Assembly (NCBI RefSeq): GCF_000744705.1
Contig: NZ_JQML01000001.1
Coordinates: 1,798,001-1,862,000 of the forward strand
DNA from: Streptacidiphilus albus JL83
GTDB lineage: Bacteria; Actinomycetota; Actinomycetes; Streptomycetales; Streptomycetaceae
Length of the DNA stretch: 64,000 nucleotides
Direction of reading: 5' to 3'
Part shown: in pieces, positions 29,007 through 38,801 of the stretch
Layout: each line of letters starts with the position of its first letter
How positions within the stretch are numbered: the stretch's first letter is position 1
Position numbers and translations under genes: made by a program
The notes under the pieces: generated by a model
The model's database searches: none
The model's input: only the letters and a program-made list of their open reading frames with translations
Told to the model about the DNA's origin: nothing

Positions 29007-30194
29007 GTGATCGGCCTGCCCGCCATGCCCGTTGCCACCGCTTGTCCGATCGTGCTGACCGCCGCTGAGCGGCACCAGCTGAAGAAGGCGGCCTACGGCC
29101 ACAAGACCGCCTACCGGGCCCGGAATCGGGCACAGATCGTGCTGCACGCGGCCCGTGGCCGCTCCAACGCCCACATCGCCCGCGAGACCAGGCTGCACCT
29201 GGACACGGTCCGCACCTGGCGGGGCCGGTTCGCCGACGGCGGCCTGCCGGCACTGGCCGACCGCAAGCGGCCCGGACGCCCGGCCCGTTTCACCCCCGTG
29301 CAGGTCGCCGAGGCCAAAGCCCTGGCCTGCCAACTCCCAGCCGAGACCGGGATACCACTGGCGCGCTGGTCCTGCCCGGAGCTGGCCGCCGAGCTGATCG
29401 CGCGCGGCGTCACCGACTCCGTATCGGCCTCCACCGTGCGCCGCTGGCTGCGCCAGGACGCCATCAAGCCCTGGCAGTACCGGTCCTGGATCTTCATCCG
29501 GGACCCGGACTTCCGTGGCAGGGCCCAGCGCGTCCTCGACCTGTACGCCCGCACCTACGAAGGCGAACCCCTCGGCGCGGACGAGTACGTGCTCTCCAGC
29601 GACGAGAAGACCTCGATCCAGGCCCGCTGCCGCTGCCATCCGACCCTGGCCCCGGGTCAGGCCAGGGCGATGCGCGTCAACCACGAGTACAGACGCGGCG
29701 GAGCCCTGGCCTACCTGGCCGCCTACGACGTCCACCAAGCCGACGTCCTTGGCCGCTGCGAGGCCACCACCGGCATCGTGCCGTTCATGGCGCTCGTCGA
29801 ACAGGTCATGACGCAGGAGCCCTACGCCAGCGCGAAGCGCGTCTTCTGGATCGTCGACAACGGCTCCTCGCATCGCGGCAAGAGATCAATCGACCGCCTG
29901 GCCGCCCGATTCCCGAACGCCGTCCTGGTCCACACCCCGGTCCACGCCTCATGGGTGAACCAGATCGAGATCTTCTTCTCCATCGTGCAACGCAAGGTCG
30001 TGACGCCCAACGACTTCACCGACCTCGACCAGGTCAGAGCCCGGCTCCACGCATTCGAAGACCGCTACAACGCCACAGCACAGCCGTTCCAGTGGAAGTT
30101 CACCACCTCCGACCTGGACGATCTGCTGGCCCGGCTCGACCGACACACCCCCACCGACCGACACCAAGAATCCTCCGTCGCACTGACTGCCTGA
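29007..30194 (+). CDS. IS630-family DDE transposase
   Basis: 395 residues. N-terminal two-part HTH region (LTAAERHQLKKAAYGHKT, IARETRLHLDTVRTWRGRF, then VSASTVRRWLRQ) followed by an RNase H-like DDE catalytic domain: Asp199 in LSSDEKTS, Asp284 in WIVDNGSSH and Glu321 in WVNQIEIFFSIVQRK. Spacing matches the IS630/Tc1-mariner group, which inserts at TA. The start is GTG at 29007, without a clear ribosome site; ATG at codon 7 is an alternative. The stop codon TGATCAACCCCC abuts the right terminal repeat. Deleted or degenerate relatives lie in cassettes A and B. Confidence 0.93.
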   Translation: MIGLPAMPVATACPIVLTAAERHQLKKAAYGHKTAYRARNRAQIVLHAARGRSNAHIARETRLHLDTVRTWRGRFADGGLPALADRKRPGRPARFTPVQVAEAKALACQLPAETGIPLARWSCPELAAELIARGVTDSVSASTVRRWLRQDAIKPWQYRSWIFIRDPDFRGRAQRVLDLYARTYEGEPLGADEYVLSSDEKTSIQARCRCHPTLAPGQARAMRVNHEYRRGGALAYLAAYDVHQADVLGRCEATTGIVPFMALVEQVMTQEPYASAKRVFWIVDNGSSHRGKRSIDRLAARFPNAVLVHTPVHASWVNQIEIFFSIVQRKVVTPNDFTDLDQVRARLHAFEDRYNATAQPFQWKFTTSDLDDLLARLDRHTPTDRHQESSVALTA

Positions 30195-34212: not shown

Positions 34213-34307
34213 AGGTGATCTCCGTGGCAGGGATGTTGGGATGAGAGTACTGACTCCGAGCCCGTGAGCGACGGGCATATATCCCGCCCGTCGTTGTACC
34301 ACCACGA

Positions 34308-34457
34308 GTGCCTACCCGTCGCATCGCCTTCCCCATGCTCGCACCGGCCTTCGTGACCATCTTCCTGCTCCAGTTCGCCCAGATCCGGAACAACTTCACC
34401 CTGCGCCTGGCGACGCTCACAGGATTCATTAACTTCCGTTATTGGAAGGACACTTGA
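34308..34457 (+). CDS. possible 49-residue membrane peptide
   Basis: GTG at 34308 opens a short frame with strong G/C third-position bias: basic start VPTRRIAFPMLAPAFVTIFL, one hydrophobic helix, then QIRNNFTLRLATLTGF. No ribosome site. It may be a real small membrane protein or the remaining end of a lost gene. Confidence 0.3.
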   Translation: MPTRRIAFPMLAPAFVTIFLLQFAQIRNNFTLRLATLTGFINFRYWKDT

Positions 34458-34489
34458 CGGATGGAGCAGTGACATTTCCTTCTGAATAG

Positions 34490-34653
34490 GCCTGCTGGCA
34501 CCGACGCGCCCTGGTGTACCGGCCAAGCACGACGCAGGAGCAAGTACTGGTGAACTGATGATTACTCACTGTGCTGGTCACAGCACGGTTTACGTACCGC
34601 TGGGGCGGTTGACCCGGTGTTCCGCACCGGACATGACGGTGGCTTCCCAATGA
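34490..34653 (+). pseudogene. degenerate copy of small HTH gene
   Basis: Reads RRALVYRP, then after a one-base frame change HDAGASTGELMITHCAGHSTVYVPLGRL, which lines up with RRALAYRAEYDAGASISELMLTHRASYNTVYALLEL of the gene at 32177-32410. The frameshift and lost residues mark it as a decaying paralogue. Confidence 0.65.
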
Positions 34654-34846
34654 ACCATTCACGACGTCCAGGGCGACAGAGGGGGCACGCTCCGCGCTCT
34701 CTCCCGGCTCGCCCTGTGGCGTCGGGCCCCGAAAAGTCCTTGCAGCGTCAGGGCAGTGTCGATATCCCTGCACCGGTGGGTACTTCACCATGTTTGCGGA
34801 CTGCTATGTTCTCGCAAGATCCCCTCTCTGTAGAAGGAGCGCACGC

Positions 34847-35047
34847 ATGCTCAACGGTCTTCCTGAAATCTCGGTCACGCGCATCGCCGCCCTTGCGGCG
34901 GTCAGCGCAGGACTGATTGTCGGCGCGGCTGTGGCCATTGCTCCGGCCCCGACGACGGCCGAGGCCCGAGGCTGCCACATATCGGCCCTGGCGGCGGCTG
35001 AGCCCGCCCACTCCTCGGAGCTCTTCCGGCCGGCCGGTTGCTTCTAG
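34847..35047 (+). CDS. 66-residue peptide precursor, two cysteines
   Basis: MLNGLPEISVTRIAALAAV opens a hydrophobic segment to about residue 32, then APAPTTAEARG, and a C-terminal part CHISALAAAEPAHSSELFRP ending AGCF. AAGGAG lies 8 bases before the ATG. It may be a small exported disulfide peptide (cleavage after AEA) or a modified-peptide precursor with a 25-residue core bracketed by two cysteines. It precedes the PaaK-like gene by 109 bases on the same strand. Function unknown. Confidence 0.6.
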   Translation: MLNGLPEISVTRIAALAAVSAGLIVGAAVAIAPAPTTAEARGCHISALAAAEPAHSSELFRPAGCF

Positions 35048-35156
35048 CCTCCTGACGAGAAGTCATGTGATGAACAAGGACACCTGATGCGAGCCGTGCG
35101 ACCGCTGAAAGTCGCACGGCTCGCGTTCGGCTCCACCGGTCCCGAGGAGACGGCCC

Positions 35157-36398
35157 ATGCAGACCACCCTGACCGAGCAGCGCCTGATCGGTCTGGCCCG
35201 GACGCTGACCCGCGTCCGAGCGGACAGCCCGTTCTACCGGGGGCTGATCCCCGACGGGGACATCGGGCCCGACGACGCCCCCGGTCTGCTGCGGCAGCTG
35301 CCCTGGCTCGACCCGGCCGGCTGGGCCTCGGTCCGCGAGCAACTGCGCACCTCGACCTTCGACGGGATCGCCACCGGGTTCACCAACGGCACCTCCGGTA
35401 CCCCGAAGGCGTTCTACTCGACCGAGGCGGAGCGTGCGGCGCTGAGGTCCAGCCGTGTCGGCGACGGGCGTCGGCGGCTGCAGTTGGTCGGTTTCAACCA
35501 CGGGGCCGTGGTGGGTCTGGACCTGGCTGGAGAAGGAGACTTCGTCCCCCTGCTGTCGATGGCCTACTTCGACCTGGCGGCCGACCTCATCGCCAACGGC
35601 TCCGCCGACGGGAGTCGCATTCGCGTCCTGGCGGGTACGGCGCGGCAGATCAAGGATCTGACGCTGCACATGCAGCAGCGCTTCGGCGACATCTCCGGCT
35701 TCGGCATCGACTCGCTGGAGGTCGGGCGTGAGTTCCTCTCCCGTGGCTGGGAGTCCCGGCTACGCGAGTGGTGGGGTGCGGAGATCGACGTGGTCTACGG
35801 CTTCTCCGAGCTCCGTATGTGCAACGCGCTCAAGTGCCGGACCTGTGCACACCATCACTTCCCTCCGTCCTGCGTGGCCGAAGTCGTCGACCCGGCCGAT
35901 CCCGACCGCTATGTTCCGCTAGGCGGGCGCGGCAGCCTGCTGGTGACGGCGCTCTACCCCTACGTCGAGTTCGAGCCCCGGATCCGCTACCGGCCCGGCG
36001 ACCTGGTCCAACTCGCTGCGCAGGCCTGCCCGAAGTGGGGGGAGCCGGGGTTCCTCCCGTTGGGGCGGGAGGCGCACTGCGTGGCCTCCGGCGAGCAGGG
36101 CGGGTTCGTCACTACTGCGGACTGTGTGTCCACCTTCGCGGACCTGCCGCAGGTCGCGGTCAGTCCCCGCCATCTGTACCCCGATGCCGACCAGCGGCAC
36201 TACGAAGCGGGAAGCCCCCGCTTCAAGATCGTCGACGAGGCCGACGGCCCCGCCGTCCGGGTGGAGCTCCGCTTCGACCCGCAGGTCTGGCCGCAGGAGG
36301 CACAGGCCGTCGCCGACGCGGCCCGGAAGTCCCTTCCGGCGGGGGTCCGGGTGATCCTGCACGGCCCTGGCCAGCTCGAAGACGTGACCCTCGTCTAG
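35157..36398 (+). CDS. PaaK-like adenylate-forming enzyme
   Basis: 413 residues. ANL-type motifs: FTNGTSGTPK (residues 75-84, ATP-binding loop), VVYGFSE (212-218, aryl/acid-site region) and RIRYRPGD (275-282). A cysteine/histidine cluster MCNALKCRTCAHHHFPPSC (221-239) resembles the zinc-binding insert of PaaK/CapK-like enzymes. Related proteins activate aromatic or other carboxylic acids as AMP esters, sometimes in natural-product pathways. It is shorter than classical phenylacetate-CoA ligases (about 430-440). Start ATG at 35157 has GAGGAG 9 bases upstream. Neighbours are a short peptide gene and a methyltransferase gene. Substrate unknown. Confidence 0.8.
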   Translation: MQTTLTEQRLIGLARTLTRVRADSPFYRGLIPDGDIGPDDAPGLLRQLPWLDPAGWASVREQLRTSTFDGIATGFTNGTSGTPKAFYSTEAERAALRSSRVGDGRRRLQLVGFNHGAVVGLDLAGEGDFVPLLSMAYFDLAADLIANGSADGSRIRVLAGTARQIKDLTLHMQQRFGDISGFGIDSLEVGREFLSRGWESRLREWWGAEIDVVYGFSELRMCNALKCRTCAHHHFPPSCVAEVVDPADPDRYVPLGGRGSLLVTALYPYVEFEPRIRYRPGDLVQLAAQACPKWGEPGFLPLGREAHCVASGEQGGFVTTADCVSTFADLPQVAVSPRHLYPDADQRHYEAGSPRFKIVDEADGPAVRVELRFDPQVWPQEAQAVADAARKSLPAGVRVILHGPGQLEDVTLV

Positions 36399-36490
36399 GG
36401 AGCCCCCAGCACGGCGAGCCAACGCAAGCCGAGGCCCCGGCAGGAAATCGAGTGTGCGATCCATCCGTCCCTGTGCCAGTATCACCGGCC

Positions 36491-37264
36491 ATGACCGCAG
36501 AACGAGCTACCGCCCTCTTCGACCAAGTGGCCTCGGTGTACGACGAGGTGCTGCCGTTCTTCGCCGGGTTCGGCGAGCAGCACATGGAGTGGCTCGCCCC
36601 TGCTCCCGGCACCCGTGTCCTCGACCTGGGCGCCGGACGCGGCGCCCTGACCGGTGCCGCGCTCGCCCGTGGCTGCCAGGTGACGGCCGTGGACTGCGCC
36701 CCCGGCATGGTCGAGCGGATCGCGGCCCAGTACCCGGACGTCCACGGGACGCGGGTGATGGACGCTCATCGACTGGACTTTCCGGACAGCTCCTTCGATC
36801 TGGTCTGCGCCGGATTCGTCGTCCACCTGCTCGACGATCCGGCAGCGGCGGCCCAGGAGGTCCGTCGAGTCCTCGCCCCTGGCGGGGTGTTCTCCTTCTC
36901 CGTCCCCGGAGCCGTCGAGGACGCGCCGGAGTGGGAGTTCTACAGCGCCCTCTTCCGCGAGTTCCAGCCGCGGATACCCGCCGGCGAGGGACGCCTCAGC
37001 CGCCCCCTGGACGAGCAGCAGCTTCTCGTGACGGCCGGATTCACCGACGTCGGCGACACTGACATCGAGCAGCGTCTCCCGGTCCCCGACGCCGACACGT
37101 TCTGGAACTGGGCGCTCTCGCACGGCTCCCGCGCGTTCATCGACGCCCTCCCGGCGGACTCCCGATCCGAGTTCGAGGCCCGGGTGCGGGCGGAGCTGGC
37201 CATCATGGATCCGATCGTGTTCGCCTCCGGCGCCAGCCTCTGGCGCGGCACCTCGCCGGCCTGA
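36491..37264 (+). CDS. SAM-dependent methyltransferase
   Basis: 257 residues, class I Rossmann methyltransferase: motif I VLDLGAGRGALTG (residues 40-52), acidic motif II VTAVDC, DLVCAGFVVHLLDDPAAAAQEVRRVLAPGGVFSFSVP later. No ribosome site precedes ATG 36491, but CAGTAT lies 12 bases upstream, so a leaderless RNA is possible. It follows the PaaK-like gene by 92 bases and may act on the same product. Confidence 0.88.
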   Translation: MTAERATALFDQVASVYDEVLPFFAGFGEQHMEWLAPAPGTRVLDLGAGRGALTGAALARGCQVTAVDCAPGMVERIAAQYPDVHGTRVMDAHRLDFPDSSFDLVCAGFVVHLLDDPAAAAQEVRRVLAPGGVFSFSVPGAVEDAPEWEFYSALFREFQPRIPAGEGRLSRPLDEQQLLVTAGFTDVGDTDIEQRLPVPDADTFWNWALSHGSRAFIDALPADSRSEFEARVRAELAIMDPIVFASGASLWRGTSPA

Positions 37265-37337
37265 CCCGCGTCGGCGGCTGTCGGGCCGGAGGGCGGTCCG
37301 GTTTGCGGGGCACTGACCCGGACCGGCCGGTGGAGGG

Positions 37338-38147
37338 TCAGTGACCGACGGCGGCCTTGACCGCCTTCGTGGCGAAGTAGCCGGAGAGCCAGCCGGCGGT
37401 GGCGTCCGAGTGGTGCGGCGCCTCGACGAAGCCGGTGATGGCGAAGCCCGCCGCGATCTGGCCGCCGAGCTGCTCGGTGAGCGTGTGGCTGTACTCCACC
37501 GGCGCGTCGAGGCCCCACAGCCGTTCCCGCTCGGCGGGCTCCAGGTGGGTGAGGTCGCTGTAGGGCAGGCGGTGACGCACCACCAGCTCGCCGCGCGCCT
37601 CCAGGGGCTCGGCATCGAAGAGGTAGACGTCCGGGTTGAGGAAGCCGGACAGCAGCGTCCCGCCGGGGCGCAGCACGCGGTGGCACTCGCGCCAGACCGG
37701 CGCCGGCTCCGGGATGAACAGGTTGGAGACCGGGTGGACGATCAGGTCGAAGGAGGCGTCCGGGAACGCACTCAGGTCGCGCGCGTCACCGAGCACGGTG
37801 CGCAGATCGAGCCCCTCCCGCGCCGCGACCATCTCGTCCTGCGCCAACTGGCGGGGCGAGTTGTCGAAGACGGTCACCCGCGCGCCCGCCGCGGCCAGCA
37901 CCGGACCCTGCTGCCCGCCGCCGGAGGCGAGGCAGAGCACGTCGCGACCGGCGATGTCCGGCGGGAACCAGGTCGGGTCGACCGGCTCGTGTCCGATCAG
38001 GACGATGGACCACTGACCGGCCCGCGCCTTCGCGATCACCTCGGGGCCGACCGGGCGCGACCACTCGTTGCCCTGCTCCACCTCGCGGTCCCAGGCGAGG
38101 CGGTTGTGCGCGACGGGGTCGACGGGGTCGACGGGAGTCTGGCTCAT
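37338..38147 (-). CDS. SAM-dependent methyltransferase
   Basis: 269 residues. Begins SQTPVDPVDPVAHNRLAWDREV; motif I reads DVLCLASGGGQQGPVLAAAGARVTVFDNS (residues 88-116), followed by FDLIVHPVSNLFIPEPAPVWRECHRVLRPGGTLLSGF. This N-terminal pattern (HNRxAWD) is shared by Streptomyces ubiquinone-type methyltransferases of unknown substrate. ATG at 38147 is the one directly before this motif. It is divergent from the RHH regulator over a 120-base gap with paired palindromes, so it may be a regulator target. Confidence 0.88.
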   Translation of the reverse strand: MSQTPVDPVDPVAHNRLAWDREVEQGNEWSRPVGPEVIAKARAGQWSIVLIGHEPVDPTWFPPDIAGRDVLCLASGGGQQGPVLAAAGARVTVFDNSPRQLAQDEMVAAREGLDLRTVLGDARDLSAFPDASFDLIVHPVSNLFIPEPAPVWRECHRVLRPGGTLLSGFLNPDVYLFDAEPLEARGELVVRHRLPYSDLTHLEPAERERLWGLDAPVEYSHTLTEQLGGQIAAGFAITGFVEAPHHSDATAGWLSGYFATKAVKAAVGH

Positions 38148-38204
38148 GCGCCACACCCTAGTTGCTACGTCGAACAAGTGTCCGCAGATGGCCTGCTGCA
38201 GGGG

Positions 38205-38249
38205 TTGACGCATGCGACAAGCCCTCCTTAGGGTTGACGCATGCGACAA
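38205..38249. promoter_or_regulatory. two copies of palindromic operator TTGACGCATGCGACAA
   Basis: TTGACGCATGCGACAA occurs at 38205-38220 and, identically, at 38234-38249 (29 bp apart, near three helical turns). Each is a palindrome except for one position per arm. A weaker relative TTGCTACGTCGAACAA lies at 38162-38177. Together they fill the gap between a leftward methyltransferase gene and a rightward RHH gene. Confidence 0.7.
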
Positions 38250-38267
38250 CCTCTCCCGAGGGACACC

Positions 38268-38801
38268 ATGGGCACCACCCCGCCGCGCAATGCCGGCGGA
38301 CGCCCCGAGGTCGGCCCCAAGATCGATGTTCGCCTCCCGCTCGACACTCTCCGGCGTCTCGACGACCGGGCCGAAGCCGCCCGCAAGTCCCGCGCCGACA
38401 CGATTCGCTCACTTATCGACGACGGCCTCGACCACCCCCGTACTCTCGCGGAGCTCGCCGCCGAACGCCCCCTCGAACTCGTCGACCAGGTCGTCGACGG
38501 CGACCACTCCCACGGCGTCTCCGTCCACAGCAGCGGCCGCACGTTCTGGCTCTCCAGTTGCCCGGACGGGTGGATCCTCGCCCACAGCAGGAGTACGAGG
38601 CTCATCGCCGCCTTCCAGGGCGCGGCGCTCCTCGCCTTCCAGCACCTCCCCGTCAGCGAAGTGACTCCCCATCTGACCTCCGACGAGCCCGCCTTTCCCG
38701 CCCTGGTCGCCGCAGGACGGGCAATCCTCGACGACATCGGCGCACAGGAACGCCACCTGGCGCGGAACCTCGACGCCGTGCAATGGCCGCCCATCCTCTG
38801 A
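38268..38801 (+). CDS. ribbon-helix-helix regulator
   Basis: 177 residues. An N-terminal RHH domain (PKIDVRLPLDTLRRLDDRAEAARKSRADTIRSLIDDGL, residues 19-56) is followed by a 110-residue C-terminal domain (FWLSSCPDGWILAHSRSTRLIAAFQGAALLAFQHLPVSEV). The ATG at 38268 has GAGGG upstream; an earlier ATG lies inside the second operator copy and is unlikely. CopG/Arc-type proteins bind tandem palindromes as dimers of dimers, which fits the two operator copies 19-63 bases upstream, so autoregulation is likely. Another target may be the divergent methyltransferase gene. Confidence 0.78.
   Translation: MGTTPPRNAGGRPEVGPKIDVRLPLDTLRRLDDRAEAARKSRADTIRSLIDDGLDHPRTLAELAAERPLELVDQVVDGDHSHGVSVHSSGRTFWLSSCPDGWILAHSRSTRLIAAFQGAALLAFQHLPVSEVTPHLTSDEPAFPALVAAGRAILDDIGAQERHLARNLDAVQWPPIL

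Follow-up and report, generated by a model that had tools for sequence, protein, structure and literature searches.

Minimal gene clusters in which the carboxylate of a short ribosomal peptide is adenylated have been described for GrcB, IndF and MccB, all of the E1/ThiF superfamily. According to the available excerpts of the respective reports, the ThiF-like GrcB adenylates its own peptide, leading to a Glu-Cys thiolactone (PMC12250964), and IndF forms an indolylamide (PMC12150305). An adenylating enzyme likewise serves a ribosomal peptide in the case of nosiheptide, where, in the part of the report at hand (PMC5585349), NosI activates a free indolic acid that ends, via the carrier NosJ, on a Cys. 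PEARL pathways, as far as the consulted extracts describe them, combine a small ribosomal peptide with an ATP-dependent ligase and use aminoacyl-tRNA. In the open-licence PMC literature, the macrocyclising or capping chemistry of ThiF-like RiPP enzymes was not found for ANL enzymes of the kind described below.

Our analysis of 64,000 nucleotides of Streptacidiphilus albus JL83 DNA (the window) revealed a small peptide gene and a gene for a PaaK-like ANL enzyme that form a genuine, very sparse two-gene cassette shared between actinobacteria. The cassette is like the GrcB, IndF and MccB clusters in its proposed logic, but its enzyme is of the ANL superfamily and its reaction is a prediction. With the PEARL pathways, in the extracts consulted, it has in common the small peptide and the ATP-dependent ligase, whereas its ANL enzyme belongs to another family; its enzyme is likened to NosI by description, not by sequence. 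The initial annotation had tentatively placed the locus outside the named classes, and within the literature searchable here (open-licence PMC papers) no named class fits the cassette.

Distribution of the peptide-enzyme pair

The peptide, the ANL enzyme and a methyltransferase are encoded on the same strand where they had been placed originally, as confirmed by the ORFs and Pfam (Table 1). The gene for a 66-residue peptide with a good ribosome site was likewise confirmed: AGAAGGAG stands 7 nt ahead of its ATG, and the enzyme ATG is preceded by an equally good site, GAGGAG.

Table 1. Features of the locus, with positions in the window.
Feature	Position	Strand	Basis
Ribosome binding site AGAAGGAG of the peptide gene	34832..34839	+	sequence
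Precursor-like peptide gene, 66 aa	34847..35047	+	translation; homologues in L010, L011, L012; hydropathy
17-bp hairpin between the peptide and enzyme genes	35086..35127	+	fold of 35045-35150
PaaK-like ANL enzyme gene, 413 aa	35157..36398	+	profile searches, alignment, motifs
SAM methyltransferase gene, 257 aa, outside the cassette	36491..37264	+	Pfam; independent island

A short encoded precursor conserved beside a modifying enzyme is the arrangement by which RiPP cassettes are recognized, and a small two-Cys peptide gene adjoins the enzyme gene in all loci of its clade that were found (5/5, in one of them downstream and with weak similarity). On a plasmid of Streptomyces sp. NBC_00376, an enzyme 72% identical to that of the window has directly upstream a 68-aa peptide that is annotated as hypothetical and shows 48% identity to the window peptide. 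At 88% identity, the enzyme also occurs in G149 and G210, two genomes from a single other genus, each with a 67-aa peptide upstream; the mutual identity of these two enzymes is 98.8%, and they were therefore counted as one lineage. In a third genome of this genus, G138, the enzyme is 41% identical and a 75-aa Sec-like peptide with a C-x23-C-x end starts about 43 nt downstream (ATG counted). The similarity of this peptide to the other cassette peptides is weak: it was the best of 105 small ORFs in 20 kb (hmmsearch E 0.037), and its score was reached by 4 (window), 73 (NBC_00376) and 296 (G149) of 1000 shuffles. It is also the sole carrier of the Cys pattern among the 105 ORFs. A scan of 1,031 other small ORFs found the pattern C-x(15-30)-C-x-stop in 8 (13/1,036 with the five cassette peptides included), and its rarity, together with peptide counterparts beside the same enzyme at four other loci, indicates more than chance.

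The enzyme was detected in 4 of 394 genomes of the family at E<=1e-20, the window's own included, and in 1/14 genomes of the window's genus. In the genus of G149, 5 of 70 genomes match at E<=1e-15, three being the clade members G149, G210 and G138 and two distant; G149 itself carries a distant second copy. An order-level search with the 41% relative retrieved the window's own genome only (1/391), a class-level search this genome and the distant G825 (2/394), and a search of genus g9, run without a positive control, none of 392 genomes at E<=1e-30. No relative was seen in viral contigs, phages or genome contigs, the last being weak evidence of absence since these scans need short exact stretches. 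In tblastn against plasmids the peptide alone gave no match even at E 10 although a plasmid homologue exists, so that the absence of tiny peptides from such searches means little. A defence-system reading was dropped in view of no PADLOC match.

All ORFs in 24 kb of the window and in 19-25 kb of the four other pair loci were compared with each other. Among the matches listed, no gene besides the pair, including any protease or exporter, is common to the five loci; beyond the pair and shadow frames, they comprise 36% identity over 70 residues between a small ORF of L010 and a large ORF of L014. ORF matches to the window fall entirely within the pair for L014 (14/14) and L015 (13/13). Between the window and G149, 159/201 bases (79%) of the peptide gene and 1091/1242 (88%) of the enzyme gene are identical, as are 55/109 (50%) of the intergenic bases, 37/92 (40%) downstream and 39-52% just upstream; the conservation of DNA is limited to the two ORFs. 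A transposase gene with a DDE_3 domain (29007-30194, + strand) precedes the cassette by about 5 kb, consistent with a mosaic region.

Conserved features of the peptide and of the enzyme

The peptide (MLNGLPEIS...CHISALAAAEPAHSSELFRPAGCF) carries its cysteines at positions 43 and 65. The Cys-bracketed C-terminal part had been described as 25 residues ending in GCF; the ending is correct, but the length counted from Cys43 is 24. Residues 13-31 form a hydrophobic segment, with a best 19-residue Kyte-Doolittle mean of 2.2-2.5 in the peptides of the window, G149/G210 and NBC_00376, and an AxA-like site (AEA) ahead of the first Cys is, judged by eye, a candidate signal-peptidase site. A lipoprotein reading was rejected on inspection by eye, which found no lipobox at the first Cys. 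MLNGL-EI, the hydrophobic stretch, both Cys and E-L-F are invariant across these three upstream-peptide lineages. Conservation of the tail, posed beforehand as a check of the locus, was borne out, the C-x-end being kept in the upstream peptides as well; the conserved Glu of the window peptide lies 7 residues before the last Cys. The NG86 estimates of dN/dS (0.197/0.339 for the peptide, 0.068/0.347 for the enzyme) point to purifying selection on the peptide that is looser than that on the enzyme. Within the peptide gene, with few lineages at hand, DNA identity amounts to 89/108 in the N part and 70/93 in the C part between the window and G149, and to 75/108 and 47/93 between the window and NBC_00376.

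The stretch 35045-35150 folds with -50.5 kcal/mol (z -4.68). In NBC_00376 another strong structure forms at the same intergenic place (z -5.79), and none is present in G149/G210 (G149 z +1.75), i.e., a strong hairpin occurs in 2/3 lineages. Such a hairpin is expected if the precursor is made in excess of the enzyme, and it possibly sets precursor expression above that of the enzyme. Positions 34300-38300 contain no sigma-70-like promoter, and terminator-like sites there are at chance level.

The window enzyme reached no Pfam family at cut-off and gave no AMP-binding match at E<=1. Its best NCBIfam match was the DVU_1553-type AMP-dependent ligase (61.6 bits versus a cut-off of 300), other matches (BagE/FevW, FlxY, PaaK) lay far below cut-off, and no model in either collection reached its cut-off, that of PaaK phenylacetate-CoA ligase proper included. 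The matches in both are to ANL families, with neither a ThiF match nor an extra recognition domain, and the closest solved structures are the phenylacetate-CoA ligases 4r1l (E 3.7e-10, four-sequence profile) and 9s3l. The motifs NGTSGTPK (P-loop), YGFSE and RYRPGD, which we take to be the ATP-binding motifs, are all present. The Cys/His cluster singled out in the initial annotation does exist (CNALKCRTCAHHHFPPSC), but it aligns with the Cys/His region of ordinary PaaK structures and is therefore nothing special. The enzyme thus resembles the ANL group of PaaK, F390 synthetase, BagE-FevW and FlxY in its core ATP-binding motifs, its Cys/His region and its weak profile matches, and differs from this group in remaining below curated cut-offs and in its shortened C-terminus.

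In a 21-sequence alignment, the window enzyme ends in EDVTLV and those of NBC_00376 and G149 in DDPILV and DDVTLV, all lacking a Lys. The Rhizobium and G825 tails, NEPIVIKI and PEPALKL, have a Lys at the usual PaaK-like position, and the G138 enzyme has one near the usual C-terminal position. The usual C-terminal catalytic Lys of PaaK-like enzymes (A10) is apparently missing from the window enzyme, and for this reason efficient adenylation is uncertain: either another residue substitutes for it, or adenylation may be slow or done differently. A single-sequence AlphaFold2 model of the enzyme was unusable (pLDDT 38.6, pTM 0.26).

Small peptides beside related enzyme clades

In the tree of the 21-sequence alignment, the enzymes accompanied by the two-Cys peptide make up clade A. 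In clade B (Rhizobium leguminosarum, Aminobacter, Mesorhizobium and G825), a 55-88-aa Ala/Glu-rich peptide is encoded upstream of the enzyme; R. leguminosarum is represented here by one of eight similar records, and the Aminobacter and Mesorhizobium enzymes are nearly the same. In the genus of G825, all enzyme-bearing genomes (4/4, L047-L050, G825 included) keep the peptide at 84-100%; it comprises 55-60 aa, ends in RR and lies beside a 500-aa PaaK-like enzyme. In clade C, a ribosome-like site and a peptide gene of only 22-26 codons directly precede the enzyme in 5/5 loci, the peptides following the pattern MVKHYxKYAxSTLxxAMF (MVKHYIKYAFSTLTAAMFASMV). These loci are a second copy in the window's own genome (L009/L024, near C1:9.168 Mb), the NBC_01435 and NBC_01324 plasmids (L030 and L031), L005 and L006; the C-terminal peptide residues vary, and a similar membrane protein follows in L009 and L030.

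Roseibium has one unconfirmed 60-aa ORF. No such peptide was seen in scans of the related loci L020, L021 and L022, nor such a conserved ORF at the other PaaK-like loci L002, L004 and L007 (L003 and L008 lay outside the scan). When 25 other gene starts were examined as a rough control, 4 were preceded by some small ORF having a ribosome-like site; the presence of a peptide alone is therefore weak and its conservation is what counts. Since small peptide genes of other types lie upstream of two further clades, a peptide-handling role for this enzyme group is likely.

The R. leguminosarum plasmid locus (L029; NZ_CP121639.1, 369310-394410) encodes, besides the Ala/Glu-rich peptide and the PaaK-like enzyme, an S8 protease and a 7-deazapurine set: FolE, 6-carboxytetrahydropterin synthase, QueE, QueC, nitrile hydratase, and adenylosuccinate synthetase and lyase. 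Its product is possibly a peptide-linked nucleoside; the open-licence PMC literature yielded nothing on a deazapurine gene cluster in this species. The Mesorhizobium plasmid NZ_AP023260.1 (L028) and Aminobacter (L027) combine a small peptide of this kind and a PaaK-like enzyme with an S8 protease, a homologue of beta-ribofuranosylaminobenzene phosphate synthase and PurC- and PurH-like genes, a C-nucleoside-like cluster.

Proposed chemistry and alternative readings

We tentatively propose, at a probability of roughly 0.4, that the pair is a minimal, horizontally spreading RiPP-like cassette whose enzyme activates a carboxylate that a conserved Cys captures. The N-terminal part, MLNGLxEI and the hydrophobic segment to near the AxA-like site, would serve as leader or export part, and the last 24-26 residues, bracketed by the two Cys, as core. 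With ATP the enzyme would convert a carboxylate to the acyl-AMP, most likely one of the peptide itself (the C-terminal carboxylate or the Glu of E-L-F), and the thiol of a conserved Cys would capture it to form a thiolactone. Export of the resulting cyclic peptide would follow, with a possible function in signalling or antagonism. This proposal is supported by the pairing in 5/5 clade loci with unrelated flanks, the restriction of DNA conservation to the two ORFs, the invariant peptide residues, the purifying selection on the peptide, the hairpin in 2/3 lineages, the small peptide genes upstream of related enzymes, and the precedent of GrcB for adenylation with Cys capture. Against it stand the missing C-terminal Lys, the lack of a protease or transporter conserved with the pair among the matches listed, and the Sec-like character of a peptide that, once exported, could simply form a disulfide between its two Cys. 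The downstream position and weak similarity of the G138 peptide, the missing hairpin in G149/G210 and the peptide-less L020, L021 and L022 argue in the same direction.

More broadly, and with somewhat more reserve, divergent PaaK-like ANL enzymes of at least three clades could be maturases of ribosomal micro-peptides, the window pair being a minimal form that macrocyclises or caps alone. The precursors would be the two-Cys peptide, the Ala/Glu-rich peptide and the 22-26-aa KHYxKYAxSTL peptide, respectively.

The enzyme might instead activate an external small acid and attach it to a peptide Cys, as NosI does according to the available excerpt of PMC5585349. We regard such acylation as unlikely, although both cysteines are conserved and the NCBIfam matches, all of them well under cut-off, include acid-activating enzymes (BagE/FevW, FlxY, PaaK). 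Among the matches listed, no gene for acid synthesis, a carrier protein or a transferase is conserved with the pair, and the same excerpt has NosI needing a carrier protein as well as the hydrolase-like NosK. No more probable is an independent secreted disulfide peptide, a signal or bacteriocin, beside an enzyme responsible for a companion small molecule or for protection of the producer. The hydrophobic segment and the AxA-like site (by eye) are typical of export, and the two Cys and the sparse, plasmid-borne distribution would suit such a peptide; but the pairing persists across enzymes of 41-88% identity and two other enzyme clades have peptide partners as well, which suggests a direct relation of enzyme and peptide. 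We consider it rather improbable that the peptide assists the enzyme as a carrier or helper, serving as a scaffold that has a product assembled at its end and subsequently cleaved off. PEARL scaffold peptides, as the extracts consulted describe them, offer a precedent, and the Rhizobium and Mesorhizobium relatives combine an A/E-rich small peptide with an S8 protease and purine or deazapurine genes, whereas the pair of the window clade has, among the matches listed, no accompanying protease or building-block genes and its peptide is of another type, with a hydrophobic leader and two Cys.

The initial annotation had counted the methyltransferase (Pfam Methyltransf_11, E=3.9e-23, from the ATG at 36491) as a member of the locus. 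Of the three genes whose joint occurrence was to be checked, peptide and enzyme are paired at 5/5 clade loci, but tblastn found no methyltransferase at E<=1e-3 in the 19-25 kb around the other four pairs (L010, L014, L015, L016). Besides the window's, 4 of 130 family genomes carry it at 83-85%, one match stopping at residue 220, and tblastn of the enzyme in these four loci (about 3.7 kb each) found nothing. The window aligns with them over about 36425-37276, L046 having two additional short matches to 21.5-21.8 kb; the methyltransferase thus travels with its own upstream stretch and without the pair. None of the 13 further genomes in the window's genus has a match to the methyltransferase at E<=1e-30, nor does any plasmid at E<=1e-20 (tblastn); the methyltransferase is an independent module, not a cassette member. 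A second SAM methyltransferase adjoins it (37338-38213, - strand) and is about 27-33% identical to the relatives of the first. A three-gene small-molecule or peptide locus, suggested by the common strand and the short gap (36399-36490), is largely refuted by this gene distribution and is highly improbable.

Were the cassette enzyme to modify its peptide, ANL adenylation would be a stand-alone route to finish ribosomal peptides. The candidate precursor comprises just 22-26 residues in one clade, and the rhizobial pairing sits within deazapurine and C-nucleoside-like clusters. PaaK-like genes annotated as 'hypothetical protein', 'CoF synthetase' or 'phenylacetate--CoA ligase' would then be beacons for small or odd unannotated precursors.
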